From Pseudomonas sp. NC02 (GTDB lineage Bacteria; Pseudomonadota; Gammaproteobacteria; Pseudomonadales; Pseudomonadaceae): a DNA stretch of 64,000 nt. The position numbers were made by a program, and so were the translations under genes. Within the stretch, counting starts at the first letter, position 1. The number at the start of each line of letters is the position of its first letter. Positions 12,004 through 28,907 of this stretch are shown one piece after another. The stretch is from positions 2,604,001-2,668,000 of the forward strand of contig NZ_CP025624.1 of assembly GCF_002874965.1 (NCBI RefSeq), given 5' to 3'. The notes beneath the pieces are model-generated. The model was not told the DNA's origin and searched no databases. It saw only the letters and a list, made by a program, of their open reading frames with translations.

Positions 12004-12079
<76 letters not shown>

Positions 12080-13420: not shown

Positions 13421-13528
13421 GACGCTTACCTCGGATCTATTGTGATCGGCCTGTCGACTGCGGGCCCTTAGGTGCTCTCGCCAATGTGAAGCTTGCCAGT
13501 GATGAAGGCTATTCGGCGGATTGATTGT

Positions 13529-13543
13529 TGGTATACCATAATA
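13529..13543 (+). promoter_or_regulatory. Predicted GntR operator, copy A
   Basis: TGGTATACCATAATA lies between the divergent LLM monooxygenase (start 13420, minus) and chemoreceptor (start 13609, plus). It is one of six copies of TGGWATACCRTAATA in the window, all in intergenic regions of the same gene set. Confidence 0.8.
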
Positions 13544-13608
13544 CGGAATATCTGCAAAACTTTTCTCTCCAGCGGTCGCACATTCACTTCACAAGGAAGG
13601 CGAGCTAG

Positions 13609-15555
13609 ATGAACATAAAACAAAAATTGATCCTGGCCTTTGCGGTGATCGCCAGCCTGCCAGTCATTCTGGTGGCAGTGATGATCATCCTCAACGTGCG
13701 CCATGAGGCACGGGACGGCTTTATCGACGGCAGCGAACGCGAGATTCGCCAGGTCGACAATGCCATGCAATTGTTTTTTGAAGGTATCAGTCAGAACGTC
13801 GCCTACCTGGCGGCGCATCCGCAGTTGCAAAGTATCAACGGCGATGTGAAACGCTATCTGGCCAGCGACGCCGCCCAAGTCGCACTCGGCGAGCGCGATC
13901 AGCAGTTGTTCAAGCTGTTCGAGGGCCTGGCCAAGAGTCATTCGGCCTACACCTACCTGTCACTGGGTACTGAAGATGGCGGCTATGTATTCTGGCCGGG
14001 TGACCCGAAGCTGGCGAGCTACGACCCGCGCACCCGGCCCTGGTACAAGACGGCCATGGCGCAACCGGGCAAGACCCTGCGCACCGAGGCGTATTACTGG
14101 GCCGCCGATGACGTGGTGCTGGTCAGTACGGTGCGAAGCTTCAATGACCGCCAGGGCAACGCGAGCGGGGTGGTGAACATCGATGTTTCCCTCAAGCAAC
14201 TGACCGACCTGGTCAAACAGATCAAGCTGGGTGACAGCGGCTACCTGATGTTGATGGAAGCCAATAACACCGTGTTGGTGGACCCGAATGACCCGTCTCA
14301 CAACTTCAAGAAACTTAGTGAGTTGGGCGAGGGTTACCGGCAGTTGAGCGAGGCTGGGCAGGGCCTGGTGCAGGTCGAGTTGGCAGGCGAGCGCTACATG
14401 GCGTTTGTCTGGCCGTCCAGGGCATTGGGCTGGCGGTTTGTCGGGGTGGTGCGGGAAAGTGAAGTGATGGCCGGCGCGGCGCGCCTGACCTGGCTGATCG
14501 CGGCGATCGCCCTGGTGTGTGCCGTGTTGTTTGCAGTGGTGGGCGCCTGGTTTGCCGGGCTGATCGTCAAGCCGATTCGTGGTGTGGCCAGCGGCCTGGA
14601 AGGCATCGCCCAGGGCGAAGGAGACCTGACGGCGCGTCTGCCGGTAAAAGGGCGAGACGAGACGGCACAACTGGCCGGCTGGTTCAACCAGTTCCTCGAA
14701 GCGATCCGCACGCTGATCCAGCGCATCGGCCAGGCGGCCGGGCAGATCCACAGCAGTTCGGGGAGTGCCATGGAGGTCTCGGTGGAAATGGCTGAGGTCG
14801 CCTCACGCCAACGGGAGGCCGTGGACATGGTGTCCACCGCGTTTCATGAGATGGTCGCCACCTCCAATGAAGTCGCGCGCTCCTGCAGCCAGGCCGCCGA
14901 CTCTGCCGACAACGGACAGCGCCAGGCGCACACCGGCCAGCAGCAGATCGACGCAGCAGTGAGCAGCGTAGGGCGCCTGAGTGAGGAAATCGGCCACTCC
15001 GCCCAGTCCATGGAGCAACTGGAAAAAGACAGCAACGACATCCAGTCGATACTCGGCACCATCCGCTCCATCGCCGAACAGACCAACCTGCTGGCGCTGA
15101 ACGCTGCCATCGAAGCCGCCCGAGCCGGTGAACAGGGGCGTGGTTTTGCCGTGGTGGCAGACGAAGTGCGGGCCCTGGCCAAGCGTACGTCGGACTCCAC
15201 CGGCGAGATCGACGGGCTGCTGGGCAACCTCGCCCGGCGTACCCATCAGATGGGTAAACAAATGCATGCCAGCCTGGAGGTGTCCCAGGAAACGGTGGTG
15301 TCGATCAACGACGCACGGGCCAGTTTTGGGTTGATTCGCGAGTCGGTGGACGTGATCCGCGACATGAATACGCAAATCGCAACGGCTGCCGAAGAGCAGC
15401 ACCAGGTGGCTGAAGACATCAATCGGCACATCAGCCAGATTCACGGGGATGCACAGTTGGTGGCGAGCCTGGCTGATTCCACGCGCCAGGATGCGCAGCA
15501 ATTGACGACGTTGTCTCAGACGTTGAATCAGTTGGTCAGCCGCTTCCGCACCTGA
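13609..15555 (+). CDS. Methyl-accepting chemotaxis protein, dCache sensor
   Basis: The 648-residue transducer has a membrane segment at about 8-28, a periplasmic double-Cache domain (about 30-280), a second membrane segment (about 287-310), HAMP, and the signalling hairpin [20 protein letters not shown]. In the membrane-distal Cache module, [12 protein letters not shown] followed by VNIDVSL reproduces the R-x-WY and Asp pattern reported for amino-acid-binding dCache domains, so a charged amino- or ammonium-type ligand is plausible. GGAAGGCGAG precedes the ATG. Divergent from the monooxygenase with a shared operator between them, it probably steers the cell to the compound that the regulon degrades. 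Confidence 0.93.
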
Positions 15556-15597
15556 CCGGTGGGCGCCCGGGCTGCCGGGCGCCTGCAACGCTAACGA

Positions 15598-16083
15598 TCA
15601 GGCAATGGCGGGCAGGGCGCCCATCTTGCCGTGGCAATACACCAGTGGCCCGGCGTTCTGCCGGGGCACGATCAGGTTCTTCACCGCACCGACCATGATT
15701 GCATGGTCACCGCCTTCATACTCACGCCACAACTCGCACTCGATCACCGCCGTGGCATTGGCGAGGATCGGGTTGCCCAGTTCACTCAACGTCCATTCGA
15801 TGCCCTGCGCCTTGTCTTTGCCCTTGCGCGCAAAAGCATAGGCTTCGCTTTGCTGCCCACCGGACAGCACATGAATGGCAAAGCGCTGGTTCTTGATCAG
15901 CACCGGATAGGAGTCGGAACTGTAGTTGGGGCAGAACAGCACCAGGGCCGGCTCCATGGACAACGAGCTGAACGCACTGGCGGTAAGTCCGACTATCTGC
16001 CCGTCATCATCGAGCGTGGTGATCACGGTGACTCCGGACGGAAACGAACCCATCACTTGTTTGTAGATGGCGGCATCGATCAT
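15598..16083 (-). CDS. Flavin reductase (two-component monooxygenase partner), copy 1
   Basis: The 161-residue protein is a short-chain flavin reductase of the HpaC/TgnA kind: FPSGVTVITTLDDDGQIVGL, then LTASAFSSLSMEPALVLFC (flavin-binding core), and GDHAIMVGAVKNLIV near the end. It should supply reduced FMN to the LLM monooxygenase. It is closely related to the second flavin reductase at 25413-25898 (same length, alignable throughout, most positions identical). The operator copy B lies about 50 bases upstream. It faces the chemoreceptor gene end-on, separated by about 40 bases. Confidence 0.9.
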   Translation of the reverse strand: MIDAAIYKQVMGSFPSGVTVITTLDDDGQIVGLTASAFSSLSMEPALVLFCPNYSSDSYPVLIKNQRFAIHVLSGGQQSEAYAFARKGKDKAQGIEWTLSELGNPILANATAVIECELWREYEGGDHAIMVGAVKNLIVPRQNAGPLVYCHGKMGALPAIA

Positions 16084-16132
16084 GGGACGGTCCTCGTAGG
16101 GTGAAGCGGATTTTATAGATTTGTAGGTCTGA

Positions 16133-16147
16133 TGGTATACCGTAATA
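16133..16147 (+). promoter_or_regulatory. Predicted GntR operator, copy B
   Basis: TGGTATACCGTAATA lies about 50 bases upstream of the minus-strand flavin reductase. It differs from the other copies by one G at the degenerate tenth position. Confidence 0.75.
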
Positions 16148-16305
16148 CAATCTAATCAAGGGCTTTTTCAGGCGGCCGATGAACGTTGACCTTTGGTCTT
16201 ATAGCCAATGAATACGGGGGTTAGCCCGCTGAATGAAGAGGGGCCGTGTGGCACAATAGCGGATCAGATGCGTGCCAGGACTACGGATCAGTCTTGTGAA
16301 AATGT

Positions 16306-16320
16306 TGGAATACCATAATA
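16306..16320 (+). promoter_or_regulatory. Predicted GntR operator, copy C
   Basis: TGGAATACCATAATA lies 85 bases upstream of the NCS1 permease start. The intervening region 16084-16404 holds no gene; besides copies B and C I see only AT-rich promoter-like sequence. Confidence 0.75.
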
Positions 16321-16404
16321 TGGTGTTCGTATGGGGGTGGCCAGAGAGCTCCCCCGGTTTGGCGTCAAACAACTATAAGATCAGACAAACGCGAGTTCAT
16401 TTCC

Positions 16405-17811
16405 ATGCCCCAGATGTCCCGGCAAGATCCCCTGATCGAGAATCACACGGTCGATTACGTCCCCCTCGCGGAGCGCCATGGAAAGGCCCGCGACCTGTTC
16501 ACCCTATGGTTCAGCACCAACATTGCACCGCTGCCCATCGTCACCGGCGCTATGGTGACTCAGGTGTTCCATCTCAACCTGGTGTGGGGGCTGCTGGCGA
16601 TTGCCCTCGGGCACATGCTCGGCGGTATTGTCATTGCCCTCGCGTCGGCCCAGGGCCCGCGCATGGGCATCCCGCAGATGGTGCAGAGCCGGGGTCAGTT
16701 CGGGCGCTACGGAGCGCTGCTGATCGTTTTCTTCGCGGCCCTGATCTACATTGGCTTTTTCATCTCCAACATTGTGCTGGCGGGCAAGTCCATCGTCGGC
16801 ATCGTGCCGTCGGTACCGGTGCCGGCCAGCATCCTGATCGGCGCGCTCAGCGCCACGGCCATTGGCGTGATCGGCTATCGCTTTATCCATACCCTGAACC
16901 GCATCGGCACCTGGGTGATGGGCAGCGCATTGCTGGCGGGTTTCCTCTACATTTTTTCCCACGACCTGCCGGCAGACTTCCTCACCCGTGGCGGCTTCAA
17001 TCCGGCCGGCTGGCTGGCGACGGTGTCGTTGGGAGTGATCTGGCAGATCAGCTTCTCCCCCTATACCAGCGATTATTCGCGCTACCTGCCGGCTGATATC
17101 GGCATCACCCGACCCTTTGTCGCCACCTACCTGGGGGCCACTCTCGGCACCATTTTGTCGTTCTCCTTTGGCTTGGTCGCCGCCCTGGCGACACCCGAAG
17201 GCACTGAGGCGATGGTCGCGGTCAAGCAAGCCACCGGCTGGCTGGGGTCGATCCTGATGGTGCTGTTTCTGCTCAATATCATCAGCCACAACGCCCTGAA
17301 TCTGTATGGTGCGGTGCTGTCGATCATCACCTCGATCCAGACCTTCGCCAGCCAGTGGACACCCGGCATCAAAGTGCGTGTGGTGCTGTCCAGCGTGGTG
17401 CTGGCCGGATGCTGCGTGGTGGCATTGGGCGCGTCGGCGGACTTCATCTCGCAATTTATCGGCCTGATCCTTGCGCTGCTATTGGTGCTGGTGCCGTGGG
17501 CGTCGATCAACCTGATCGATTTCTACATCATCAAGCGTGGCGCCTATGACATTGCGTCGATCTTTCAGGCGGACGGCGGGGTTTACGGACGCTTTAACCT
17601 GCATGCGATCGTGGCGTATTTCATCGGCATCATCGTGCAACTGCCGTTTGCCAATACGTCGCTGTACGTGGGGCCATGGGCCAATCTGGTAGAGGGCGCA
17701 GACCTGTCGTGGCTGGTGGGGTTGGTGGTGACGTGTCCGCTGTATTACTGCCTGGCGACGCGCGAGCATAGCCGGAAGATGAGGACGGTAAAGTTGGGCT
17801 ATACCGACTGA
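16405..17811 (+). CDS. NCS1-family purine/cytosine-type permease
   Basis: The 468-residue protein has about 12 hydrophobic segments and the NCS1 (nucleobase:cation symporter-1) layout, with WFSTNIAPLPIVTGAM in the first membrane segment and SDYSRYLPADIG in the loop after segment 6. CodB-like members carry cytosine, others carry allantoin, uracil, nicotinic-acid-like or pyridoxine-like molecules. Located between operator copy C and a terminator, and next to the monooxygenase genes, it probably imports the N-heterocycle or a relative. ATG 16405 is used; an ATG at 16414 is also possible because no clear ribosome-binding site distinguishes them. Confidence 0.87.
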   Translation: MPQMSRQDPLIENHTVDYVPLAERHGKARDLFTLWFSTNIAPLPIVTGAMVTQVFHLNLVWGLLAIALGHMLGGIVIALASAQGPRMGIPQMVQSRGQFGRYGALLIVFFAALIYIGFFISNIVLAGKSIVGIVPSVPVPASILIGALSATAIGVIGYRFIHTLNRIGTWVMGSALLAGFLYIFSHDLPADFLTRGGFNPAGWLATVSLGVIWQISFSPYTSDYSRYLPADIGITRPFVATYLGATLGTILSFSFGLVAALATPEGTEAMVAVKQATGWLGSILMVLFLLNIISHNALNLYGAVLSIITSIQTFASQWTPGIKVRVVLSSVVLAGCCVVALGASADFISQFIGLILALLLVLVPWASINLIDFYIIKRGAYDIASIFQADGGVYGRFNLHAIVAYFIGIIVQLPFANTSLYVGPWANLVEGADLSWLVGLVVTCPLYYCLATREHSRKMRTVKLGYTD

Positions 17812-17828
17812 TCATCGAATGAACTGAA

Positions 17829-17857
17829 ATGCCCGGCCAATGCCGGGCATTTTTTTA
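17829..17857 (+). terminator. Intrinsic terminator of the NCS1 permease gene
   Basis: ATGCCCGGC-CAAT-GCCGGGCAT followed by TTTTTTAT, 17 bases after the permease stop. Confidence 0.88.
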
Positions 17858-17948
17858 TCTGCAGTTAAGGCCTGCCGATGCAGCCGTATCCTTGTAGCAA
17901 GCTGGCTTGATGATCAATGACATCCGGCCAGGTCCAATGTTAGCAGGC

Positions 17949-17984
17949 AAAAAAAGGCCGCCACAACCCGACGTTGTGGCGGCC
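17949..17984 (-). terminator. Intrinsic terminator of the ABC importer operon
   Basis: A perfect 12-bp stem, GGCCGCCACAAC / GTTGTGGCGGCC at 17956-17984, is followed on the minus strand by a run of seven Ts. It lies just beyond the stop of the ABC ATPase gene and ends the minus-strand operon. Confidence 0.88.
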
Positions 17985-17994
17985 CAAGGGTGAC

Positions 17995-19149
17995 TCAATG
18001 GGCGCCGGCGGCCTTGTTCAGATCGCTTTCAGCCCATGCGGTATAGACGCAAGCATCCGCCGTGGCCCAGCGCACGCGCACCGGGTCGCCGGCCTTGAGT
18101 TGCATGCCCGCAGCAGACAACGCCTTGACTGTCATCGAGGTGCCGCCAAGGGTTTTCACGGTGCAGGTCTGGCTTTCGCCGAGGAACAGCACCTCGCCTA
18201 CAATCGCTGACACCTCATTCCAACCCGCCGCCAATGCCTGCTCGGTAGCTTGCTCGACACTCAGCGCCAAGGCTTTTTCCGGGCGTACCATCAACAGCAC
18301 CTCCTGCTCGGTTTGCAAGCCGCTGGTCAGGCGGATCGACAGCGATTGGCCTTCAAACGATGCCACCGCATTCCCCTGCGCCTTGAGCTTGAGGAAGTTG
18401 GAGTTACCGAGGAACGAGGCTACAAACGCATTTGGCGGGTTCTGGTACAGGTCGTAGCCACTGCCCAGGCCGACAATCTTGCCGTGGCTGAAAATCGCGA
18501 TGCGCTGGGACAGGCGCATGGCTTCTTCCTGGTCGTGGGTTACGTAGACGATGGTGATGCCCAGGCGCCGATGTAATTGGCGCAGTTCGTCCTGCAGGTC
18601 TTCACGCAGTTTTTTGTCGAGGGCGCCGAGGGGTTCGTCCATCAGCAGGATGCGCGGCTCGTACACCAGCGCCCGCGCGATGGCGACGCGTTGCTGCTGG
18701 CCGCCGGAGAGTTGCGAAGGGCGGCGATGGGCAAATTGCTCAAGCTGCACCAGCTTAAGCATGGCGTCGACGCGCTTCTCGCGCTCGGCGCTGGCCAGTT
18801 TGCGAATCGCCAGGGGGAAGGCGATGTTGTCGCGCACCGACAAATGCGGGAACAGCGAGTAACGTTGGAACACCATGCCGATGTCGCGTTTGTGCGGCGG
18901 CACATTGACCAGGGATTGGCCGCTCACCAGGATCTCGCCGCTGCTTGGCGTTTCAAAGCCTGCGAGCATCGACAGGGTGGTGCTTTTGCCAGAGCCGCTG
19001 GAGCCGAGGAAGGTCAGGAATTCGCCGTCCTTGATGTCCAGCGAGATGTTATCCACGGCGGCAAATTCACCGTAGTACTTGTTCAGGTTGCGCAAGCTGA
19101 CCAGGGGTTGGCCATGGTTTTGCGCGGTATCTTGGATCACTGCACTCAT
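17995..19149 (-). CDS. ABC transporter ATPase, polyamine/PotA-like
   Basis: The 384-residue protein has Walker A GSSGSGKSTT, signature LSGGQQQRVAIARAL, Walker B ILLMDEPLGALD and the switch His in VYVTHDQEEAM, then a C-terminal TOBE domain (about 290-370), as in PotA/SpuF importers. It powers uptake with the two permeases upstream. ATG at 19149 is preceded by CAGGAGC; the open frame extends further but with no start signal. It is the last gene of the binding protein, permease, permease, ATPase operon. I infer that the substrate is a cationic or zwitterionic amine-like compound relevant to the regulon. Confidence 0.92.
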   Translation of the reverse strand: MSAVIQDTAQNHGQPLVSLRNLNKYYGEFAAVDNISLDIKDGEFLTFLGSSGSGKSTTLSMLAGFETPSSGEILVSGQSLVNVPPHKRDIGMVFQRYSLFPHLSVRDNIAFPLAIRKLASAEREKRVDAMLKLVQLEQFAHRRPSQLSGGQQQRVAIARALVYEPRILLMDEPLGALDKKLREDLQDELRQLHRRLGITIVYVTHDQEEAMRLSQRIAIFSHGKIVGLGSGYDLYQNPPNAFVASFLGNSNFLKLKAQGNAVASFEGQSLSIRLTSGLQTEQEVLLMVRPEKALALSVEQATEQALAAGWNEVSAIVGEVLFLGESQTCTVKTLGGTSMTVKALSAAGMQLKAGDPVRVRWATADACVYTAWAESDLNKAAGAH

Positions 19150-19166
19150 GTCTTGCTCCTGGGCGC

Positions 19167-19976
19167 TCAAGCGCGGGTTTCTGTGCGCCGGCGAAGGGCG
19201 GCGGCGATGACCATGACGAGCACCGAGAGGCCGATCAGCAACGTCGAGGCGACGGCAATCACAGGCGTCAGGTCCTGGCGCAGGGTGGTCCACATTTTTA
19301 CGGGAAGGGTTTGCAGGGTCGGGCTGGCCATCATCACGCTGAGCACCACTTCGTCCCATGAGACGAGAAAGGCGAACAACGCGCCGGCCACCATTCCCGG
19401 GCGAATCGCCGGGAATGTCACCTTGAATACGGCCTGCAGGCGCGATGCGCCGCAGATCACCGCCGCATCTTCAATCGATTGGTCGAACAGCTTCAGCGAG
19501 TTGATGATCGAGATAATGGTGAACGGCAGCGCGACAATCACATGGCTCACTACAAAGGCGAACATCGTGCCGGTATAGCCGAGCTTGAGGAACAGTGCGT
19601 ACACCGCCACCGCGATGATCACCAACGGCACGATCATCGGCAGGGTGAACAGGCCGTAGAGCAACTCGCGGCCAGGAAATCGCCCACGCACCAGGGCAAA
19701 TGCGGTGGGCAGGCCCAGCGCCACGGCGAACACGGTGGTCAGTACCGCAACCTTGAGGCTCGCTACCGCCGCGTTCATCCAGTCGGCATTGGAGAAGAAC
19801 TGGCCGTACCATTTCAGCGTCCAGCCCGGTGGCGGGAACACCAGCCATTGGGACGAGCCGAACGACAGCAACACGATGAACACGATCGGCAACAGCAAGA
19901 ACAGGCCAATCATGCCGGTGGTGGTGTAGAGGCCCAGGCGCATCCTGCGGCTCATGGCATTGGAAGTCAGGAGCAT
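19167..19976 (-). CDS. ABC transporter permease, PotC-like
   Basis: The 269-residue inner-membrane subunit has about six hydrophobic segments and the EAA loop EDAAVICGASRLQAVFKVTF followed by FPAIRPG, which docks on the ATPase. The FSNADWMNAAVASLKVA region before the second segment is typical of PotC/SpuH permeases. It lies 17 bases upstream of the ATPase start and 6 bases downstream of the PotB-like gene. Confidence 0.92.
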   Translation of the reverse strand: MLLTSNAMSRRMRLGLYTTTGMIGLFLLLPIVFIVLLSFGSSQWLVFPPPGWTLKWYGQFFSNADWMNAAVASLKVAVLTTVFAVALGLPTAFALVRGRFPGRELLYGLFTLPMIVPLVIIAVAVYALFLKLGYTGTMFAFVVSHVIVALPFTIISIINSLKLFDQSIEDAAVICGASRLQAVFKVTFPAIRPGMVAGALFAFLVSWDEVVLSVMMASPTLQTLPVKMWTTLRQDLTPVIAVASTLLIGLSVLVMVIAAALRRRTETRA

Positions 19977-19982
19977 GACGGC

Positions 19983-20900
19983 TTACCTCGCGTTGCTGGC
20001 GCCAACCGGGGATTCCGGCTGAAGCTTCAGGTAGAAGTAGAACAGCACCAGCGTGATAAAGATCAGCAATGCGGCGCCGGCACTCGCCAGGCCCCAGTTG
20101 AGGAACGACTGCACCTGCTGGATGATGAACTCAGGCAGCATCATGTTCTGCGCGCCGCCGAGCAGCGCCGGGGTGACGTAGTAACCGAGGGACATCACAA
20201 ACACCATCAAGCCGCCGGAAAACAACCCCGGTCGGCACAGCGGCAGGAACACCCGGAAGAAGTTGGTCCAAGGGCTGGCACCGCAGATGGAGCCGGCCTG
20301 CAGGATCATCGGGTCGATGGCCTGCATGGTTGCCTGCAATGGCAGCACAATGAACGGGATCATGATGTAGCTCATACCGATCACCACGCCGGTCAGGTTG
20401 TGCACCATCTCCAGCGGCTGGTCGATGATGCCCATCGCCATCAGTGCCTTGTTGATCACCCCGGAGGCTTGCAGCAATACCAGCCATGAATAGGTGCGGG
20501 CGAGCAGGCTGGTCCACATCGACAGCAGCACGATGTTCAGGATCCAGCGCCCCCAGCCGCGTGGTACCAGGGTAATCACCCAGGCCAGCGGGAAGCCCAG
20601 CAACAGGCTGAACAGGGTCACCAGGCCGGCCACCGAAAAGGTATTGAGCAGTACCCGGGCGTATGCCGAGTTAGCGAACAGTTGCTCATAGTTGCCAAGG
20701 CCCGGTACGGGCTCCAGCACGCCGCGCAGCAACAGGCCGATCAGCGGCGCGAGGAAGAACAGGCCGAGGAACAGCAGCGCCGGGATCAGGTTGCTCGACC
20801 CCCGCCAGCGCTGCGCCAGGGATGGCGCACCTGGTTTGCAGGAAACTGCGCCAGCAACGCCGAGGGCGCTCCCGGTCGGCGTGGTTGCCGTCATTTTCAT
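19983..20900 (-). CDS. ABC transporter permease, PotB-like
   Basis: The 305-residue partner permease has a hydrophilic N-terminus, six hydrophobic segments and the coupling loop QAGSICGASPWTNFFRVFLP. I chose the ATG at 20900 because it overlaps the binding-protein stop as ATGA, a classic coupling arrangement. An ATG at 20912 and one at 20894 are also in frame. It forms the channel with the PotC-like gene product. Confidence 0.9.
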   Translation of the reverse strand: MKMTATTPTGSALGVAGAVSCKPGAPSLAQRWRGSSNLIPALLFLGLFFLAPLIGLLLRGVLEPVPGLGNYEQLFANSAYARVLLNTFSVAGLVTLFSLLLGFPLAWVITLVPRGWGRWILNIVLLSMWTSLLARTYSWLVLLQASGVINKALMAMGIIDQPLEMVHNLTGVVIGMSYIMIPFIVLPLQATMQAIDPMILQAGSICGASPWTNFFRVFLPLCRPGLFSGGLMVFVMSLGYYVTPALLGGAQNMMLPEFIIQQVQSFLNWGLASAGAALLIFITLVLFYFYLKLQPESPVGASNAR

Positions 20901-21922
20901 TTGACTAGCCATTCATTCCACCGTGTCGCAATGGCCGGACCGTTCTTGGCCCAGTAGGCGAAATCGAGGGTGATCTGGTCCTTGGCATACGCCGTCGGCA
21001 GGTTGGGCGCCAGCACTGAGTCCAGGCGCTGCACACTGTCGATGTTCACCGGTGCATAAGCGGTCAGGTTAGAGAAGTCGGCCTGGCCCTTGGCGCTGCT
21101 GGCACTGGCCAGGAACTTCATCGCCGCGCCTTTGTTTTTGCTGCCTTTAGGCACGACCAGGATGTCCGCCATCACCAGATTCTGTTTCCAGCTTACGCCT
21201 ACGGGTGCGCCATCTTCCTGCAGGGCATGAATGCGGCCGTTCCAGAACTGACCCATGCTGACTTCGCCCGAGGCCAGCAGTTGCTGGGACTGTGCGCCGC
21301 CGCCCCACCAGACGATGTCTTTCTTGATGGTGTCGAGTTTCTTGAAGGCGCGGTCCAGGTCCAGGGGGTAGAGCTTGTCGGCGGGAACGCCGTCAGCCAG
21401 CAGCGCCAGTTCGAGCACGCCAGGGCTTGGCCATTTGTAGAGGGCACGTTTGCCGGGGTAGGTTTTGGTGTCGAACAGCGCGGCCCAGTCCTGTGGCTTG
21501 CCAGCGCCGAGCTTGCCCTCGTTGTAGCCGAGTACGAAGGAGAAGAAAAACGAGCCGACGCCATGGTCGGAGACAAACCGCGGGTCGATCTTGTCGCGCT
21601 GGATCACCGAAAAATCCAGGGGTTCGAGCAGCCCTTCAGCGGCGGCGCGCAAGGCGAAGTCAGCCTCCACGTCTACCACGTCCCACTGCACGTTGCCGCT
21701 CTCGACCATGGCCTTGAGCTTGCCATAGTCGGTGGGACCGTCCTGCACCACAGTGATCCCGCTGGCCTTGCTGAAAGGATCGGCCCACGCCTGCTTTTGC
21801 GCATCCTGGGTGCTACCGCCCCAGCTCACGAAATTGACGCTTTCGGCCGCCAGGGCCGCGTGAGTGGCCGTGGCCAGCAAACCCGCGAACAGCATCGCGG
21901 TTGCACGTTTGTTCAACACCAT
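20897..21922 (-). CDS. ABC transporter periplasmic binding protein, PotD/SpuD-like (SBP_bac_8)
   Basis: The 341-residue protein has a clear signal peptide (MVLNKRATAMLFAGLLATA, cleaved after THAALA), then ESVNFVSWGG, the usual start of polyamine-type binding proteins, and the VWWGGGAQSQQLLASGEVSMG hinge region. ATG at 21922 is preceded by GAGGGCG; an upstream open frame to 22075 has no start signal. It is first in its operon, and operator copy D lies about 180 bases upstream. Substrate specificity of this family cannot be read reliably. Confidence 0.9.
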   Translation of the reverse strand: MVLNKRATAMLFAGLLATATHAALAAESVNFVSWGGSTQDAQKQAWADPFSKASGITVVQDGPTDYGKLKAMVESGNVQWDVVDVEADFALRAAAEGLLEPLDFSVIQRDKIDPRFVSDHGVGSFFFSFVLGYNEGKLGAGKPQDWAALFDTKTYPGKRALYKWPSPGVLELALLADGVPADKLYPLDLDRAFKKLDTIKKDIVWWGGGAQSQQLLASGEVSMGQFWNGRIHALQEDGAPVGVSWKQNLVMADILVVPKGSKNKGAAMKFLASASSAKGQADFSNLTAYAPVNIDSVQRLDSVLAPNLPTAYAKDQITLDFAYWAKNGPAIATRWNEWLVK

Positions 21923-22099
21923 TTTCACGCCCTCATTTGTTTTGTTATTGAGCGGGCCTGGTAATGCCCGCCTATCGGGAGCAGTAGGTCTCTCGAAGCC
22001 TCTATTGCGAAGCCTCAAAAGTCGACCGTACCAAGGCTTGTTACTGGCGCTATCCCTGGCATGCGCACTTGGCAAAAGTACTCGGTCGATGGAATATCA

Positions 22100-22114
22100 T
22101 ATTATGGTATTCCA
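22100..22114 (-). promoter_or_regulatory. Predicted GntR operator, copy D
   Basis: Minus-strand TGGAATACCATAATA, between the ribB-like gene stop (22151) and the ABC operon start (21922). A second near half-site, GATATTCC, follows directly on the minus strand. Confidence 0.75.
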
Positions 22115-22150
22115 AGCTTTGTGCAAGCACTTTGCCTTACCGGTTATCCG

Positions 22151-23260
22151 TCATTCGGTGAACGGAATGCTTTCCACCACCTCCAGGTCGTAGCCTGTCA
22201 GCCCGGCGTATTTCAGCGGAGGGCCAAGGTGGCGCAGCTTGCAGACGCCAAGGTCCTGCAATATCTGCGCGCCGGTGCCGACTTCCGAATAGATCCGCGA
22301 CTGCGAACGGCTGAACTGGCGCGGCGTCTGGGTCAACTGCGGGACGCGTTCGAGCAGGGCCTGGGAGGATTCATGATTGGCCAGCACCACCACCACGCCG
22401 CTGCCTTCTGCGGCGACGCGTTGCAGGGCGGCCCATAAGGTCCAGTTGGAGGGGCCGCTATACTCGGCGCCCACCAGGTCGCGCAGCGGGTCGATCACGT
22501 GCACGCGCACCAGGGCGGGCGTGTCGCGGTGTAACTGCCCCATGACCATCGCCATGTGCACGCCGCCATCAATGCGGTCCTCAAAGGTGATCAGGCGGAA
22601 CGTGCCGTGCACTGTGGGCAGGTCGCGCTCGCCGATGCGCACTACGGTGCGCTCGGTACTGAGGCGGTAGTGGATCAGATCGGCGATGGTGCCGATCTTG
22701 ATCCCATGCTTGTGCGCGAACACCTCAAGGTCAGGGCGACGTGCCATGGTGCCGTCATCGTTCATCACTTCGACGATCACCGAGGCTGGTGTGTGCCCGG
22801 CCAGGCGCGCCAGGTCGCAACCGGCTTCGGTGTGCCCGGCGCGCGTCAACACGCCGCCATCCTTGGCGCGCAACGGGAAAATATGCCCCGGTTGCACGAT
22901 GTCGGCCGGCCCCGCATCGGCATTCACGGCCGCGGCCACCGTGCGCGCCCGGTCGGCGGCGGAGATGCCGGTAGTCACGCCGGTGGCGGCTTCGATGGAC
23001 ACGGTAAACGCGGTGCTGAACACGCTGCCATTGCTCGGCACCATCTGCTGCAGGCCGAGGCGCTGGCAGTGTTCGTCGGTGAGGGTCAGGCAAATCAGGC
23101 CACGCGCTTCCCGGGCCATGAAGCTGATAGTCTCGGCGGTGCAGCACACCGCGGGCAGCAACAGGTCGCCTTCGTTCTCCCGATCCTCGTCGTCCACCAG
23201 GAGCACCATTTTGCCTTGGCGGTAGTCTTCGATGATGTCTGCGATGTTGTTGAAAGACAT
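22151..23260 (-). CDS. ribB: 3,4-dihydroxy-2-butanone-4-phosphate synthase with degenerate RibA domain
   Basis: The N-terminal half (about 1-200) is a complete DHBP synthase: VDDEDRENEGDLLLPA (acidic metal-binding loop), TGVTTGISAADRA and RAGHTEAGCDLARLAG. This enzyme makes the four-carbon precursor of riboflavin from ribulose 5-phosphate. The C-terminal half resembles GTP cyclohydrolase II but lacks the zinc-binding Cys cluster (HVIDPLRDLVGAEYS stands where the cysteines should be), so GTP cyclohydrolase activity is unlikely. This 369-residue gene sits inside a flavin-dependent catabolic regulon, with operator copy E just upstream, which suggests that it boosts FMN supply for the monooxygenase rather than serving as the housekeeping copy. 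Confidence 0.9.
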   Translation of the reverse strand: MSFNNIADIIEDYRQGKMVLLVDDEDRENEGDLLLPAVCCTAETISFMAREARGLICLTLTDEHCQRLGLQQMVPSNGSVFSTAFTVSIEAATGVTTGISAADRARTVAAAVNADAGPADIVQPGHIFPLRAKDGGVLTRAGHTEAGCDLARLAGHTPASVIVEVMNDDGTMARRPDLEVFAHKHGIKIGTIADLIHYRLSTERTVVRIGERDLPTVHGTFRLITFEDRIDGGVHMAMVMGQLHRDTPALVRVHVIDPLRDLVGAEYSGPSNWTLWAALQRVAAEGSGVVVVLANHESSQALLERVPQLTQTPRQFSRSQSRIYSEVGTGAQILQDLGVCKLRHLGPPLKYAGLTGYDLEVVESIPFTE

Positions 23261-23288
23261 GGTGGCTGCTCGATTTATTGGTTGTATG

Positions 23289-23303
23289 TATTATGGTATA
23301 CCA
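23289..23303 (-). promoter_or_regulatory. Predicted GntR operator, copy E
   Basis: Minus-strand TGGTATACCATAATA lies between the divergent ribB-like gene (start 23260) and DUF1330 gene (start 23329), so one site could govern both. Confidence 0.8.
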
Positions 23304-23328
23304 CAAAACCAAGCAAGAGGATGTCACG

Positions 23329-23622
23329 ATGAAGGCTTACTGGATTGCCCATGTAAATGTGTCCGATGCAGAGCAGTACACGCAGTACACCCAGCGCGCG
23401 CCTGCGGCCTTCGCGAAGTTTGGCGGGCGCTTCCTGGCCAGGGGCGGGCGCAGCGCCGCGATGGAAGGCGGGCCTGCCAGGCAACGTAATGTGGTGATCG
23501 AGTTCGACAGCTACGAGCAGGCGCTGGCCTGTTATGAGTCTGCGGAGTATCAGGAGGCAAAGGCGCGTCGTGAAGGGGCGGGCGAGGCGCAGATCATCAT
23601 CGTGGAAGGGCTGGTGCCTTAG
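23329..23622 (+). CDS. DUF1330 family protein
   Basis: This 97-residue protein starts MKAYWIAHVNVSDAEQYTQY and contains RNVVIEFDSYEQALACYES, the pattern of DUF1330 proteins, which adopt a ferredoxin-like dimeric alpha/beta barrel fold. Their reaction is not established. GAGGATG provides the ribosome-binding site. It is divergent from the ribB-like gene around operator copy E, so it belongs to the regulon and may act on an intermediate of the pathway. Confidence 0.88.
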   Translation: MKAYWIAHVNVSDAEQYTQYTQRAPAAFAKFGGRFLARGGRSAAMEGGPARQRNVVIEFDSYEQALACYESAEYQEAKARREGAGEAQIIIVEGLVP

Positions 23623-23669
23623 GGGTATCAGGCATACATCACATTTTTGATCCGTGTCGGGTCTGACGA

Positions 23670-24988
<1,319 letters not shown>

Positions 24989-25011
24989 GGGGGCTGCTCT
25001 GAATGTTGCGG

Positions 25012-25401
25012 TTAACTGGAGGCCTCGGCGTCGGTTTCGGCGAAGGCTTCACGGGCCAGTCGGAAACTGTCCACGGCGGCGGGAACTCCGCAATAAATGC
25101 CGACCTGAAGCAGAATTTCGCGTATTTGTTCACGACTCAGCCCGTTACGCAAGGCGCCGCGCACGTGCAGCTTGAGTTCATGGGGCCGATTGAGGGCCGA
25201 AATCATCGCCAAGTTTATCATGCTGCGTTCTTTAAGCGACAAACCCTCACGGCCCCACACATGGCCCCAGCAGTATTCGGTGACCATCTCCTGCAGGGGG
25301 CGAGTGAAGTCGTCGGCGTTCTCGATCGAACGTTGCACATAGGCTTCGCCCAGCACTTGCGTACGGATTTTCAGGCCCCGTTGGTACTTGTCGTCGCTCA
25401 T
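25012..25401 (-). CDS. Carboxymuconolactone decarboxylase-like protein
   Basis: This 129-residue protein belongs to the CMD family: LSLKERSMINLAMISALNR, HELKLHVRGALRNGLS and REILLQVGIYCGVPAAVDSF are the standard blocks. It lacks the CxxC thiol pair of AhpD-type peroxidases, so it is more likely a decarboxylase or isomerase-like enzyme. In this operon it could act on a ring-opened dicarboxylate or lactone intermediate. ATG at 25401 is used; a TTG just before it is also open. Confidence 0.85.
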   Translation of the reverse strand: MSDDKYQRGLKIRTQVLGEAYVQRSIENADDFTRPLQEMVTEYCWGHVWGREGLSLKERSMINLAMISALNRPHELKLHVRGALRNGLSREQIREILLQVGIYCGVPAAVDSFRLAREAFAETDAEASS

Positions 25402-25412
25402 CAATCAGCTCC

Positions 25413-25898
25413 TCAGGCCAGGGTGGGCAGCGGGCCCAGCTTGCCCTTGTGGTAGATCATCGGTGTGACCGGTTGCTCGGGCAGGATCAGGTTTTTCACC
25501 GCTCCGACGATGATCGCGTGATCGCCACCGTCGTATTCGCGCCACAACTCGCACTCGATGATCGCCGTGGCCTTGGCCAGCAGCGGATTGCCCAGTTCGC
25601 TCAAGTGCCACTCGATGCCCTTGGCCTTTTCCTTCCCCTTGCTGGCAAAGGCATAGGCTTCGGCGGTCTGGTCGGCGGACAGCAAATGAATCGCAAAGCG
25701 CTTGCTGTCGCGCAGGATCGGATAGGTGTCCGATGCATAGTTGGGGCAGAACAGGACCAGTGCCGGGTCGATCGACAGCGCACTGAATGCGCTGGCGGTG
25801 ATGCCGACGATGCCGCCATCCGGGTCGAGGGTAGTGACGACCGTCACCCCGGACGGGAATGAACTCATGACGTCTTTGTAAATGCCGGGTTCGATCAT
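25413..25898 (-). CDS. Flavin reductase, copy 2
   Basis: The 161-residue protein is a near twin of the reductase at 15598-16083: FPSGVTVVTTLDPDGGIVG, TASAFSALSIDPALVLFC and GDHAIIVGAVKNLILP are in the same places. It should reduce FMN with NAD(P)H for a two-component monooxygenase. It lies between the CMD-like gene and the aldehyde dehydrogenase gene with gaps of 11 and 12 bases, in the operon headed by DUF1185. The two copies probably arose by duplication within the regulon. Confidence 0.9.
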   Translation of the reverse strand: MIEPGIYKDVMSSFPSGVTVVTTLDPDGGIVGITASAFSALSIDPALVLFCPNYASDTYPILRDSKRFAIHLLSADQTAEAYAFASKGKEKAKGIEWHLSELGNPLLAKATAIIECELWREYDGGDHAIIVGAVKNLILPEQPVTPMIYHKGKLGPLPTLA

Positions 25899-25910
25899 GG
25901 TCGGGGTCTC

Positions 25911-27392
25911 TTAACGCATCACAAAAGGATCAGGCATGGGCGCCTGGGAAAGGTTGATCCACACCGTCTTCAGCTCGGTGTAAGCCAGTACTGAATCGAT
26001 GCCACTTTCACGTCCATAGCCGCTGTTCTTGAAGCCGCCAATGGGCGCCATGGCCGAGACGGCGCGGTAGGTGTTGACCCAGATAATCCCCGAACGCACG
26101 TCGCGGGCCAGGCGGTGGGCACGACCGAGGTCGCGGGTCCAGATGCCGGCGGCGAGGCCGAACTGAGAGTCGTTGGCGATGGCCAGGGCTTCGGCTTCGT
26201 CCTTGAAACGGATGACCGAGGCCACTGGGCCGAACACTTCTTCCTGCATGATCTTCATCGAGTTGCGGTCGCACTCGAACAGGGTCGGCTCATAGAACCA
26301 GCCTTCGCCCAGGTTCTGCGGACGCTTGCCACCGGTACGCAGGCGCGCACCTTCAGCGATGGCATCCGCCACCAGGCCTTCGACCACGGCCAGTTGCTGT
26401 GCGGTGGCCATGGGGCCCATTTCACTGGCGTCGTCCTGCGGGTTGCCGATGCGAATGCGTTTGGCGCGCTCTACCAGGCGCTCGACGAATTCGTCGTAGA
26501 TTTCATCCTGCACCAGCAGGCGCGAGCCAGACACACAGCTTTGCCCCGACGCCGCGTATATCCCGGCAATCGCACCATTGATGGCGCTGTCGAGGTCGGC
26601 ATCGGCAAAGATGATGTTCGGTGACTTGCCGCCCAGTTCCAGCGACAGCTTGGCGAAGTTCTCGGCGCTGCTGCGTACTACGTGCCGCGCCGTGGCTGCG
26701 CCGCCGGTAAAGGCGATCTTGCGCACCAAAGGGTGGCGGGTGAGGGCGGCGCCGGTGCTTGGGCCGTAGCCAGTCACCACATTGACCACGCCCGGCGGAA
26801 TGCCAGCCTCCAGGGCCAGGCGCGCCAGTTCGAGGATGGTCGCCGAGGCGTGCTCCGACGGTTTGATCACGATGGTATTACCCGCTGCCAGGGCCGGCGC
26901 GAGTTTGATCGCGGTCAAGTACAGCGGGCTGTTCCATGGAATGATCGCGGCCACCACGCCCATGGCTTCGTGCACGGTGTAGGCGAAGAGGTCCGGCTTG
27001 TCCAGCGGCAGGGTGCCGCCCTCAAGCTTGTCGGCCAGGCCTGCCGTGTAATGGAAGAACTCCGGCAGGTAACTGACCTGACCGCGTGTCTCGCGGATCA
27101 GCTTGCCATTGTCGCGGCTTTCGAGCTGTGCCAGTTGTTCCTTGTTTTCGGCAATCAAATCTCCCAGGCGGCGCAGCAGTTTGCCCCGCGCGGTGGCGGT
27201 GAGGCCACGCCAGGCCGGGCTGTCGAAGGCGCTTTGCGCGGCCTGCACGGCGCGCTCCACATCCGTCTCGTCGGCGTCGGGCAGTTGCGCCCAGGGTTCG
27301 GCCAGGGCCGGGTTGAGGCTGTCGAAAGTCTTGCCGGACAGGGCATCGACCCATTCACCGCCGATGCACATCTGGAAGCGTGCGAGTGTCAT
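25911..27392 (-). CDS. NAD(P)-dependent aldehyde dehydrogenase
   Basis: The 493-residue protein is a complete ALDH: FTGGAATARHVV in the coenzyme fold, LELGGKSPNIIFADAD with the catalytic Glu, GQSCVSGSRLLVQ with the catalytic Cys, and EEVFGPVASVIRF. It would oxidise an aldehyde or hemiacetal (lactol) to the acid. In the trigonelline scheme this position is taken by the dehydrogenase that opens the hydroxybutyrolactone (TgnC). The start codon overlaps the hydrolase stop by 4 bases (ATGA), showing tight translational coupling. Confidence 0.92.
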   Translation of the reverse strand: MTLARFQMCIGGEWVDALSGKTFDSLNPALAEPWAQLPDADETDVERAVQAAQSAFDSPAWRGLTATARGKLLRRLGDLIAENKEQLAQLESRDNGKLIRETRGQVSYLPEFFHYTAGLADKLEGGTLPLDKPDLFAYTVHEAMGVVAAIIPWNSPLYLTAIKLAPALAAGNTIVIKPSEHASATILELARLALEAGIPPGVVNVVTGYGPSTGAALTRHPLVRKIAFTGGAATARHVVRSSAENFAKLSLELGGKSPNIIFADADLDSAINGAIAGIYAASGQSCVSGSRLLVQDEIYDEFVERLVERAKRIRIGNPQDDASEMGPMATAQQLAVVEGLVADAIAEGARLRTGGKRPQNLGEGWFYEPTLFECDRNSMKIMQEEVFGPVASVIRFKDEAEALAIANDSQFGLAAGIWTRDLGRAHRLARDVRSGIIWVNTYRAVSAMAPIGGFKNSGYGRESGIDSVLAYTELKTVWINLSQAPMPDPFVMR

Positions 27393-28222
27393 GCAACGAT
27401 CCCCTTTATTGGATTTTTTTGGGTGTACACCGTGTCAAGAAAGCCCAGCAGCAGTTGGTTGACCAGCCGCGGCGATTCCACTGGCATCATATGCCGTTGC
27501 TCGGCCAGCACTGCAACCGTCGCACCGGGAATGCGATCGGCCAGTTGCCGGGCCATCTCCGGGGTCGAGCCCGGGTCGAGTTCACCGGTGGCGACCAGGG
27601 TCGGCGCGCGCAAACCCTTGAGGTCGTCGGCGCGGTACATGTCCTGGGTCGCGAACAGCTCGTACGTGGTGAGGTAGCCCTGGGGGTCGTTGCCCGCCAG
27701 GGTTTCACGCAGCGCAGCGATCTGCGCCGGGTTGGCTGCCTGGTACTCGCGGCTGAACCAGCGTGACAGCGCGGCTTCGGCATTCGCATCCGGGCCGTGC
27801 TCGGCGGCCTGGGCAGTGCGTGCGATCACCCCGGCACGCTGTTCGGCGCTACGGTTGAACACACTGTTGAGCACCACCAGGCCTTGCAGGCGTTCGGGGT
27901 AATGCAAGGCAAACGCCCGCGCAACCAGGCCGCCCATGGAAAACCCGATCACCGTTGCCTGAGGCAATTGCAGGTGGTCGAGCAGTTCCAGCAACTGGTC
28001 GGCATACCCCAGCAGCGGAGTGCCGGCAGCCGGGCGCGGGCTGGCGCCATGGCCCAGCATGTCATAGGTGATCACGCGATAATTCGTGGCCAGGCCAACG
28101 ACTTGCCCGCCCCACATTTCTTTATTCAGGCCCACGCCGTGGATCAAAACCACAGGCTGGCCTTGGCCGGTCGCCAGATAACTGGTGCCAGCCGGGGTGC
28201 GATCAGCGGTGAGCTGAATCAT
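27389..28222 (-). CDS. Alpha/beta hydrolase (candidate for enamine/amide-cleaving step)
   Basis: This 277-residue alpha/beta-fold hydrolase has oxyanion region VLIHGVGLNKEMW, nucleophile elbow GFSMGG, acid in TGELDPGSTP and His in AEQRHMMP. Related enzymes split (acylamino-methylene)succinates in vitamin B6 and trigonelline breakdown, releasing CO2, an amine, an acid and succinic semialdehyde. ATG at 28222 (MIQLTADRTP) is preceded by GGAGCG. Coupled to the aldehyde dehydrogenase by a 4-base overlap. Confidence 0.88.
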   Translation of the reverse strand: MIQLTADRTPAGTSYLATGQGQPVVLIHGVGLNKEMWGGQVVGLATNYRVITYDMLGHGASPRPAAGTPLLGYADQLLELLDHLQLPQATVIGFSMGGLVARAFALHYPERLQGLVVLNSVFNRSAEQRAGVIARTAQAAEHGPDANAEAALSRWFSREYQAANPAQIAALRETLAGNDPQGYLTTYELFATQDMYRADDLKGLRAPTLVATGELDPGSTPEMARQLADRIPGATVAVLAEQRHMMPVESPRLVNQLLLGFLDTVYTQKNPIKGIVA

Positions 28223-28264
28223 GGAGCGCTCCTGCATGTTTTTTGTTTGGGTGACCGGTCTTGC

Positions 28265-28855
28265 TTACCGGGCTTTCTCGGCTGCCAGCTCTTCCAGGTC
28301 GATGTAACGGTTGCCGATGCGTGGGTGCAGGCGGCCGCCGTCGGCGCACCCAAGGACCACCACGATCTCGTCGGCACGCGGGGAATCTTCTATCTGCATT
28401 TCCAAGGTGATGTAGTGCGAGCGCAGCCCTTCGTCATCCTTGTGCATCATCGGGATTTGAATCGATGTGCCCGGGCCACCGCGCTTGTTGGTAAAACTCA
28501 GGTAGCTCTTGGCCTTGACCGCTTCGCGGTAGTGGTTGCCAAAGCGCAGGGTATGGATGATTGCCGAGGCGTGTTCGATTTCACCGTCGGCACCGACCAC
28601 GGCGGCCTTGCCATAGGCTTCGATGTTGTCTGCACCACCGATAATGCCAATCAGGCGCTCCACCATCAGTGCGCCGAGATCCGAGCAGTTGGCACGGATT
28701 TCCGGTTTCAGGTCTTCGACAAAACCGCGACCCAGCCACGGGTTTTTCAGGACGACAGCCAGGCCCACCATAGTCACTGGCGTGTCGGAGGCCTTGCCGC
28801 CTTCAATAAAGGTTTCTTCTACATAGCTGACGATCTTGCGGATTTCAAAACTCAT
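28265..28855 (-). CDS. DUF1185 (amino acid synthesis family) protein
   Basis: The 196-residue protein starts MSFEIRKIVSYVEETFIEGG and holds SDLGALMVERLIGIIGGADNIEAYGKAA, the pattern of the DUF1185 or amino acid synthesis family, whose reaction is not established. It is the first gene of the seven-gene operon, with AGGTGGAG before its ATG and operator copy F about 40 bases upstream. In related catabolic clusters such hypothetical proteins assist the late steps; I cannot assign a reaction from sequence. Confidence 0.85.
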   Translation of the reverse strand: MSFEIRKIVSYVEETFIEGGKASDTPVTMVGLAVVLKNPWLGRGFVEDLKPEIRANCSDLGALMVERLIGIIGGADNIEAYGKAAVVGADGEIEHASAIIHTLRFGNHYREAVKAKSYLSFTNKRGGPGTSIQIPMMHKDDEGLRSHYITLEMQIEDSPRADEIVVVLGCADGGRLHPRIGNRYIDLEELAAEKAR

Positions 28856-28892
28856 GGCTGCTCCACCTGGGTGCTGATTGGTTTGTGTATGA

Positions 28893-28907
28893 TGGTATAC
28901 CATAATA
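28893..28907 (+). promoter_or_regulatory. Predicted GntR operator, copy F
   Basis: TGGTATACCATAATA, 38 bases upstream of the DUF1185 start, which heads the operon that includes the GntR gene. With its left flank it reads TATGATGGTATACCATAATA, one base away from a perfect 20-bp palindrome. Confidence 0.82.

Follow-up and report, generated by a model that had tools for sequence, protein, structure and literature searches.

Predicted operator sites in the catabolic gene cluster

The window analyzed here is a stretch of 64,000 nucleotides from Pseudomonas sp. NC02, corresponding to positions 2,604,001-2,668,000 of a one-contig 6.89-Mb genome. It contains a catabolic gene cluster encoding a luciferase-like monooxygenase (LLM), a methyl-accepting chemoreceptor (MCP), a flavin reductase (FlvR1), an NCS1 permease, an ABC importer, RibBA, a DUF1330 protein, and a seven-gene operon that includes the gene of a GntR regulator with an FCD domain. 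Gene families were assigned from Pfam and NCBIfam searches. One motif recurs ahead of the units of this cluster, and we propose that it probably serves as the operator of the GntR protein.

An earlier note on this DNA had described six copies of the motif, all intergenic, and had named rarity elsewhere as a point that would support its reading. All six exact copies of TGGWATACCRTAATA were recovered, at 13529 (+), 16133 (+), 16306 (+), 22100 (-), 23289 (-), and 28893 (+). They are intergenic with start codons read from the sequence for the DUF1185 protein (28855), the DUF1330 protein (23329), and the ABC solute-binding protein (SBP, 21922); for these three genes, longer listed frames running into or towards the sites were set aside. 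When up to three mismatches were allowed, the window gave 10 matches compared to 0.63 expected, and none of 100 shuffles reached 10. The four additional matches all overlap the six copies, either as the other palindrome half or as a second half-site at 22090.

In the whole genome (6,890,566 bases), the exact motif occurred at those six places only. With up to two mismatches, 13 matches were found, nine in the cluster and four outside. Of the outside matches, three fall in stop-to-stop frames that are 132, 181, and 419 codons long, and the fourth lies in no frame that reaches 120 codons. The 10-bp core, TGGTATACCA, was found at three places genome-wide, all inside the cluster. Both transporter sites, ahead of the NCS1 permease and the ABC importer, have the asymmetric core TGGAATACC. 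The region at 22085-22119, upstream of the ABC importer, holds two overlapping sites 15 bp apart, and a comparable second half-site, TAATATGATATTCCA, adjoins the main importer site in many relatives.

The family searches returned the layout that had been reported before, with six units and the GntR gene within the seven-gene operon. The order of this operon is DUF1185, alpha/beta hydrolase (ABH), aldehyde dehydrogenase (ALDH), flavin reductase (FlvR2), carboxymuconolactone decarboxylase-family protein (CMD), GntR, and NUDIX. The GntR protein matched PF00392 with 60.3 bits (cut-off 27) and PF07729 with 86.8 bits (cut-off 24.3), which is the domain make-up of the FCD subfamily. The ABC solute-binding protein was nearest to spermidine/putrescine models, yet far below their cut-offs. 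An NrtR-like role of the NUDIX protein was ruled out, as Pfam gave no DNA-binding domain in it. A tRNA-Gly gene lies at 12004-12079, directly before the cluster. The genes upstream of it resemble uvrC and pgsA, judging by their translations alone, and the catabolic block may have been inserted at the tRNA-Gly gene.

Table 1. Genes, predicted operators, and predicted promoters of the cluster (window positions) and the paralogous cluster of the same genome (genome positions).
Feature	Position	Strand	Remarks
LLM, PF00296	12377..13420	-	probable oxygenase component of trigonelline monooxygenase, TgnB-like
Predicted operator O1	13524..13543	none	between LLM and MCP genes; ATTGTTGGTATACCATAATA
MCP, dCache_1 sensor domain	13609..15555	+	Pfam/NCBIfam
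FlvR1, PF01613	15598..16083	-	Pfam/NCBIfam
Predicted operator O2	16128..16147	none	upstream of FlvR1; TCTGATGGTATACCGTAATA
Predicted operator O3	16301..16320	none	upstream of NCS1 permease; core TGGAATACC
NCS1 permease, PF02133	16405..17811	+	Pfam/NCBIfam
ABC importer ATPase	17995..19149	-	start read from sequence; listed frame longer
ABC importer permease	19167..19976	-	family search
ABC importer permease	19983..20912	-	family search
ABC solute-binding protein (SBP_bac_8)	20897..21922	-	start at 21922
Predicted operator O4	22085..22119	none	upstream of ABC importer; main 22100-22119, overlapping weaker 22085-22104
RibBA (DHBP synthase/GTP cyclohydrolase II-like)	22151..23260	-	flavin supply; NF009132 791.7 bits (cut-off 693)
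Predicted operator O5	23289..23308	none	between ribBA and DUF1330; TATTATGGTATACCACAAAA
DUF1330 protein	23329..23622	+	Pfam/NCBIfam
NUDIX hydrolase with N-terminal Zn ribbon	23670..24233	-	Pfam/NCBIfam
GntR regulator with FCD domain	24236..24988	-	proposed repressor of the regulon
CMD	25012..25404	-	Pfam/NCBIfam
FlvR2	25413..25898	-	family search
ALDH	25911..27392	-	probably TgnC-like
ABH	27389..28237	-	probable (E)-2-((N-methylformamido)methylene)succinate hydrolase
DUF1185/AA_synth protein (AAsyn)	28265..28855	-	TgnF-like; family search
Predicted operator O6	28888..28907	none	upstream of seven-gene operon; TATGATGGTATACCATAATA
Promoter, seven-gene operon			TTGCGC-16-TACCAT
Promoter, FlvR1			TTGATT-16-TACCAT
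Promoter, LLM			TTGCAG-16-TATACC
Promoter, NCS1			TTGTGA-16-TAATAT
Promoter, SBP			TTGCAC-16-TAATAT
Paralogous cluster (L169)	4,385,000-4,404,900		DUF1185, flavin reductase, NUDIX-like, ALDH, LLM, hydrolase, CMD; PucR-type regulator adjoining; no GntR operator

Co-inheritance of the motif and GntR within the family

The family set comprised 148 genomes, including the source genome. GntR was found in 37 of them (E <= 1e-50) and the exact motif in 38, which were the 37 GntR carriers and one further genome (G091). The motif was therefore present in 37/37 carriers compared to 1/111 non-carriers (Fisher p 4e-34, uncorrected for relatedness). In G091, the single match (locus L155) falls within the gene of an ABC ATPase relative. 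A reversed control pattern was found in none of the family genomes listed. The nearest paralogue of GntR in the source genome is 28% identical. The operator stands ahead of every unit, has no exact copy elsewhere, and is inherited with the regulator, which is the pattern of a local regulon under a single regulator.

Predicted operators in rearranged relatives

The sites were compared in 115 loci, of which 80 were named Pseudomonas contigs and 35 were other stretches; the window's own copy (L143) was excluded, and the sources may share species. A site was counted when the core matched at 8/10 positions or more, the whole at 13/20 or more, and the gene start lay within 400 bp. The locus counts are not independent, since close relatives make up a large part of the 80 named loci (L057 and L062, for example, look alike throughout). 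A site was found at 101/103 AAsyn orthologues, at 90/90 RibBA and 90/90 DUF1330 genes with one common site, at 16/16 FlvR1 orthologues, at 7/7 MCP genes of at least 70% identity, at 21/23 LLM genes, which share one site with MCP, and at 87/88 SBP genes with the start at 21922 (the miss was L119). The two AAsyn misses (L130 and L140) have the weaker core TGGCATACCA, and the two LLM misses (L137 and L138) lie 60 and 116 bp behind FlvR1 in the same direction. Of 22 NCS1 genes, 18 had a site of their own no more than 200 bp away and two (L139 and L154) had one at about 300 bp; none was seen in the other two, L125, which is cut at its end, and L127.

None of the 705 genes inside operons had a site (perm1 86, perm2 72, ATPase 55, ABH 103, ALDH 103, FlvR2 102, CMD 83, and GntR 101); this control informs placement only, because the DNA ahead of most in-operon genes is coding. 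NUDIX had a site in 5 of 100 loci, precisely those where it sits outside the GntR operon. The LLM, FlvR1, and NCS1 units of several genomes retained their sites although they were located on separate contigs or at distances of 33-49 kb.

Other chemoreceptors were also observed. In three loci of one genus, g6 (L124, L129, and L140), a site lies near a different chemoreceptor. The L124 gene at 16557-18539 encodes a chemoreceptor with an HBM domain rather than dCache beside the operator, and its listed start is just below the site. A second chemoreceptor near the DUF1185 operon was seen at 15881-17818 of L137, and MCP genes of about 62% identity were seen in several of L048-L062. At the thresholds used, this second chemoreceptor had no site of its own in the relatives.

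The proposed GntR-operator pair outside the family

The monooxygenase search of 398 genomes of the phylum gave 23 at E <= 1e-60, of which 18 were outside the family, and the GntR search of 369 genomes of the class (E <= 1e-35) added one (G302). Together with the paralogous cluster of the source genome, these made 20 further clusters. In those with a GntR relative, GntR is mostly divergent from an AAsyn-ABH-FlvR-LLM-ALDH operon, often with an ABC importer. In all 12 clusters with a GntR relative (36-61% identical), 9 or more of the 10 core bases were matched in the 300 bp ahead of AAsyn, and nine of these clusters had a perfect 10/10 core. L170 has, letter for letter, the idealized 20-bp palindrome that the earlier note had written down. 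The eight clusters lacking a GntR relative (seven outside the family and the paralogue) reached a core of 8/10 at most and none had the palindrome; reversed regions also reached at most 8. This contrast of 12/12 and 0/8 (Fisher p 8e-6) is weakened as support for our reading by the small number of independent GntR-less events, because the monooxygenase tree resolves the eight into four outgroup members, including the paralogue, and four that form one clade inside the GntR group.

Three named plasmid clusters were chosen because they are annotated. The plasmid clusters of the alphaproteobacteria Leisingera and Sinorhizobium meliloti (pSymA) contain a GntR relative together with a core of 10/10 and 9/10, respectively. 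The betaproteobacterium Caballeronia sp. Lep1P3 has a 9/10 core, and its GntR relative (40% identical) lies several kb downstream of the operon. The helix-turn-helix pattern LGVSR..(V/I)RE..R.LE.EGLV...GP.V was retained in the GntR relatives compared, which among the three named plasmid clusters were those of Leisingera and Sinorhizobium, with EGLI in L166. Plasmid pDCT5 of the actinobacterium Arthrobacter dokdonellae (L182) contains a tgn-like cluster whose monooxygenase is 78% identical to that of the window, and which also encodes a riboflavin kinase, a NUDIX protein, a cytosine permease, and a succinate-semialdehyde dehydrogenase (SSADH). In this cluster the GntR helix differs and no TGGTATACCA site was found; the cluster may have crossed from one phylum to another and changed its regulator in doing so.

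In the earlier note, one GntR regulon had brought together chemotaxis, both uptake systems, cofactor supply, and catabolism. This claim is supported by the comparison, namely by the co-occurrence of motif and GntR, by operators that stay with moved genes, and by the recurrence of the pair outside the family.

Promoter geometry and mode of control

In site-aligned sequences, the information content per base was 1.8-2.0 bits in the core and averaged 0.3-0.9 in the flanks; the core conservation is partly built in, because the rows were selected for a matching core. Among the seven MCP rows, a 10-base window in the flank reached 1.64 bits. Of 98 distinct AAsyn promoters, 94% had a TTG 12 bp upstream of the 20-bp site, as had 88% of 16 FlvR1 promoters; 57% of 21 LLM promoters had a TTG 14 bp upstream. 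All 98 distinct TTGGAATACCATAATA units had TTG 7 bp upstream; SBP and NCS1 were counted jointly here, as their split is not clean, and the window's own copy (L143) was included. The background TTG frequency was 2-4%. Given a 16-bp spacer, enzyme promoters would have their -10 box (TACCAT) within the core, and transporter promoters would have theirs (TAATAT) just behind it. In total, 5/8 promoters have the site over the -10 box or in the spacer behind the TTG box. A protein bound there would block the polymerase, so the GntR protein is inferred to act as a repressor.

Part of the promoter data speaks against this geometry. No fixed TTG was found at the DUF1330 or MCP sites (best 29%), and at the RibBA sites the best TTG (60% at 3 bp) fits no -35 box. 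No promoter of the TTG-16 form was found for RibBA, and the MCP and DUF1330 candidates are off-pattern. A simple sigma-70 scan gave two promoter-like sites compared to 4.5 in shuffles, and the TTG was visible only by species comparison.

The motif is of the kind that the earlier note had ascribed to FCD-type GntR regulators. According to an excerpt of PMC4494728, their consensus is an A/T-rich palindrome with TKGT/ACMA boxes and 2-3 nt between GT and AC. As in UxuR/GntR/HypR-type members of the FadR (FCD) subfamily, TGGTATACCA has TKGT...ACMA boxes with 2 nt between GT and AC, whereas those members control other regulons. The half-site TGGTATA is shared with the FCD protein NanR, which in the same excerpt binds direct repeats of TGGTATAW (PMC4494728); the halves in the window are inverted. 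The GntR alignment also differs from the UxuR/GntR/HypR type, with V, Y, and M at three of the four positions that we take to be the FCD metal ligands. The effector is therefore probably bound without that metal site.

Likeness to the trigonelline pathway

The earlier note had named no substrate. The gene set matches tgn, the trigonelline pathway of Acinetobacter baylyi ADP1 reportedly described by Perchat in 2018, in its luciferase-type monooxygenase (TgnB), flavin reductase, aldehyde dehydrogenase, alpha/beta hydrolase, and DUF1185 protein (TgnF). Compared by description rather than gene by gene, the window has a GntR regulator instead of a LysR-type one, to our knowledge, and adds the chemoreceptor, the NCS1 and ABC importers, RibBA, the DUF1330 protein, CMD, NUDIX, and a second flavin reductase. 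It also differs in its six operator-bearing units.

An excerpt of PMC11354265 lists TgnB as flavin-dependent trigonelline monooxygenase among luciferase-like proteins, and the part of PMC7913881 consulted states that TgnF of A. baylyi, a homologue of a DUF1185 protein, stimulates TgnE-dependent succinic semialdehyde oxidation. Among the matches listed, JGI names trigonelline monooxygenase for 3/120 monooxygenase homologues (79-83% identical) and the trigonelline-pathway hydrolase for 1/120 hydrolase homologues (97% identical over 88%). Most other listed homologues of both enzymes have general names or none.

Monooxygenase relatives were found in 325 plasmid records, mostly of Rhizobium (153) and Sinorhizobium (72). 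In S. meliloti ABS7, pSymA contains an AAsyn-ABH-FlvR-LLM-ALDH-NIPSNAP-ABC importer operon between nodL/noeB and nifT, with operator-like sites TATGATGGCATACCATAAGA before AAsyn and TATACTGGTACGCCATAATA before GntR. The region resembles the window in its matching operon, GntR relative, and sites before both, and differs in having a single operon with GntR upstream, in the same direction and about 0.6 kb away. The pSymA monooxygenase groups with that of the window, not with the paralogue (split 100/97, midpoint root; 49.7% v 42.4% identity). According to PMC4207669, a delta-pSymA strain, whose background the passage does not name, did not grow on trigonelline. The ABS7 operon is a candidate for the mapped trigonelline locus. 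The GntR gene upstream of the DUF1185 operon (L180, 8426-9295) is missing from the gene table of the ABS7 record, and the end of its frame departs from relatives, through either a sequencing error or a real break.

Two other pathways were rejected. For the pyrimidine (Rut) pathway, RutF reached 69 of 255 bits and RutD 87 of 239, far below the cut-offs, and RutA was absent among the best 25 of 30 NCBIfam models matching the monooxygenase. For 4-hydroxypyridine (kpi), the monooxygenase belongs to another family as far as the source excerpt goes.

Proposed regulation and alternatives

We read the six sites as operators of the GntR/FCD protein (24236-24988), which would repress the six units and be released by the substrate, most likely trigonelline. 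On the sequence comparisons above, this reading has a probability of roughly 0.75. Without inducer, a GntR dimer on TGGTATACCA would block RNA polymerase at the six units, its own operon included. When the substrate or an early product enters, GntR would release the DNA, and the chemoreceptor, both importers, the two-component luciferase-type monooxygenase, extra flavin through RibBA, and the remaining pathway would be made together. The reduced-flavin-dependent monooxygenase would then open the ring of trigonelline (N-methylnicotinate), with further conversion towards succinate semialdehyde left to the aldehyde dehydrogenase and hydrolase.

Other modes of regulation were weighed. The predicted promoters are weak (7-8/12 consensus matches), as activator-dependent promoters often are, and GntR might then be an activator or a dual regulator at the sites; however, at the five units with a recognizable promoter, the operator overlaps the -10 box or fills the spacer and is not upstream of the -35 box, which makes activation improbable. 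Operator scans cannot identify the binding protein, and a regulator encoded elsewhere could in principle bind the motif. This is very improbable, given that motif and GntR occur together in 37/37 genomes and are jointly absent in the GntR-less clusters examined, that GntR is encoded in a motif-headed operon in the window and, for most of the clusters from other families, next to the motif, and that its nearest paralogue is so distant. A dispersed repeat, or an AT-rich palindrome that arose by chance, with no regulatory role has a negligible probability and is rejected, because the motif has no exact copy outside the cluster in this genome and tracks GntR in the family; it is also kept gene by gene in relatives, and nothing was found in favor of this alternative.

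Several points weigh against trigonelline as the substrate. The cluster encodes no SSADH (TgnE); the genome has two copies at other places, at 66% and 69% to that of L053 and away from any operator, and related loci have an extra ALDH near or in the cluster, of which 3/3 tested pass the SSADH cut-off. A second, paralogous cluster is present at 4.39 Mb (LLM 43%, PucR-type regulator, no site), and either cluster might use trigonelline. The Leisingera DUF1185 protein is nearer to the paralogue (59.7%) than to that of the window (55.3%), and the only tgn regulator that we know of in Acinetobacter is of the LysR type. The trigonelline assignment draws on homology, on name transfer from a few listed homologues, and on one plasmid-level phenotype, and is probable at that strength.

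The regulon and its GntR could be real with another N-heterocycle as substrate (homarine, another N-methylpyridinium, a pyridine, or a pyrimidine), the paralogous cluster or none serving trigonelline. The second tgn-like cluster favors this, as does the marine roseobacter plasmid bearing the GntR version, homarine being a common marine compound. The homarine data in the excerpt of PMC9723723 are from diatoms. Against it, the plasmid that Sinorhizobium needs to grow on trigonelline carries a cluster whose monooxygenase groups with that of the window, and we consider another substrate rather unlikely. Through the regulon, the chemoreceptor and both importers are linked to the pathway, which makes substrate and sensor directly testable.

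Possible origin and meaning of the regulon

For the wider history, we hold the following at even odds. One GntR-operator pair, either inherited from a distant ancestor or passed on as a unit, would govern trigonelline-type catabolism in alpha-, beta-, and gammaproteobacteria. Among rhizobial and marine relatives, the pair would control a single operon; in the Pseudomonas family, this operon would have broken up into up to seven units, each keeping or gaining the same operator, and chemotaxis and flavin biosynthesis would have been added. The site would lie over the -10 box at enzyme promoters and, with a weaker asymmetric core, in the spacer at transporter promoters, where this arrangement may let the importers leak first and start induction. 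Distinct chemoreceptors (dCache here, the HBM type in another genus) would have been placed under the same operator independently.

No description of this GntR-operator regulon was found among the top entries listed in searches of the open-access literature, most subscription papers being outside the scope of these searches. A local FCD-GntR regulon is of a known kind; this member is new, as are the finding that the pair recurs so widely and the apparent split of one operon into six operator-bearing units. The observation of the six sites is confirmed, the regulon is supported, and the substrate is probable. These results point to the regulator and operator that are likely to control trigonelline use in bacteria associated with plants, on the symbiosis plasmid of Sinorhizobium among others, and provide a clear case of one operator multiplying during operon break-up that can be traced in many genomes.

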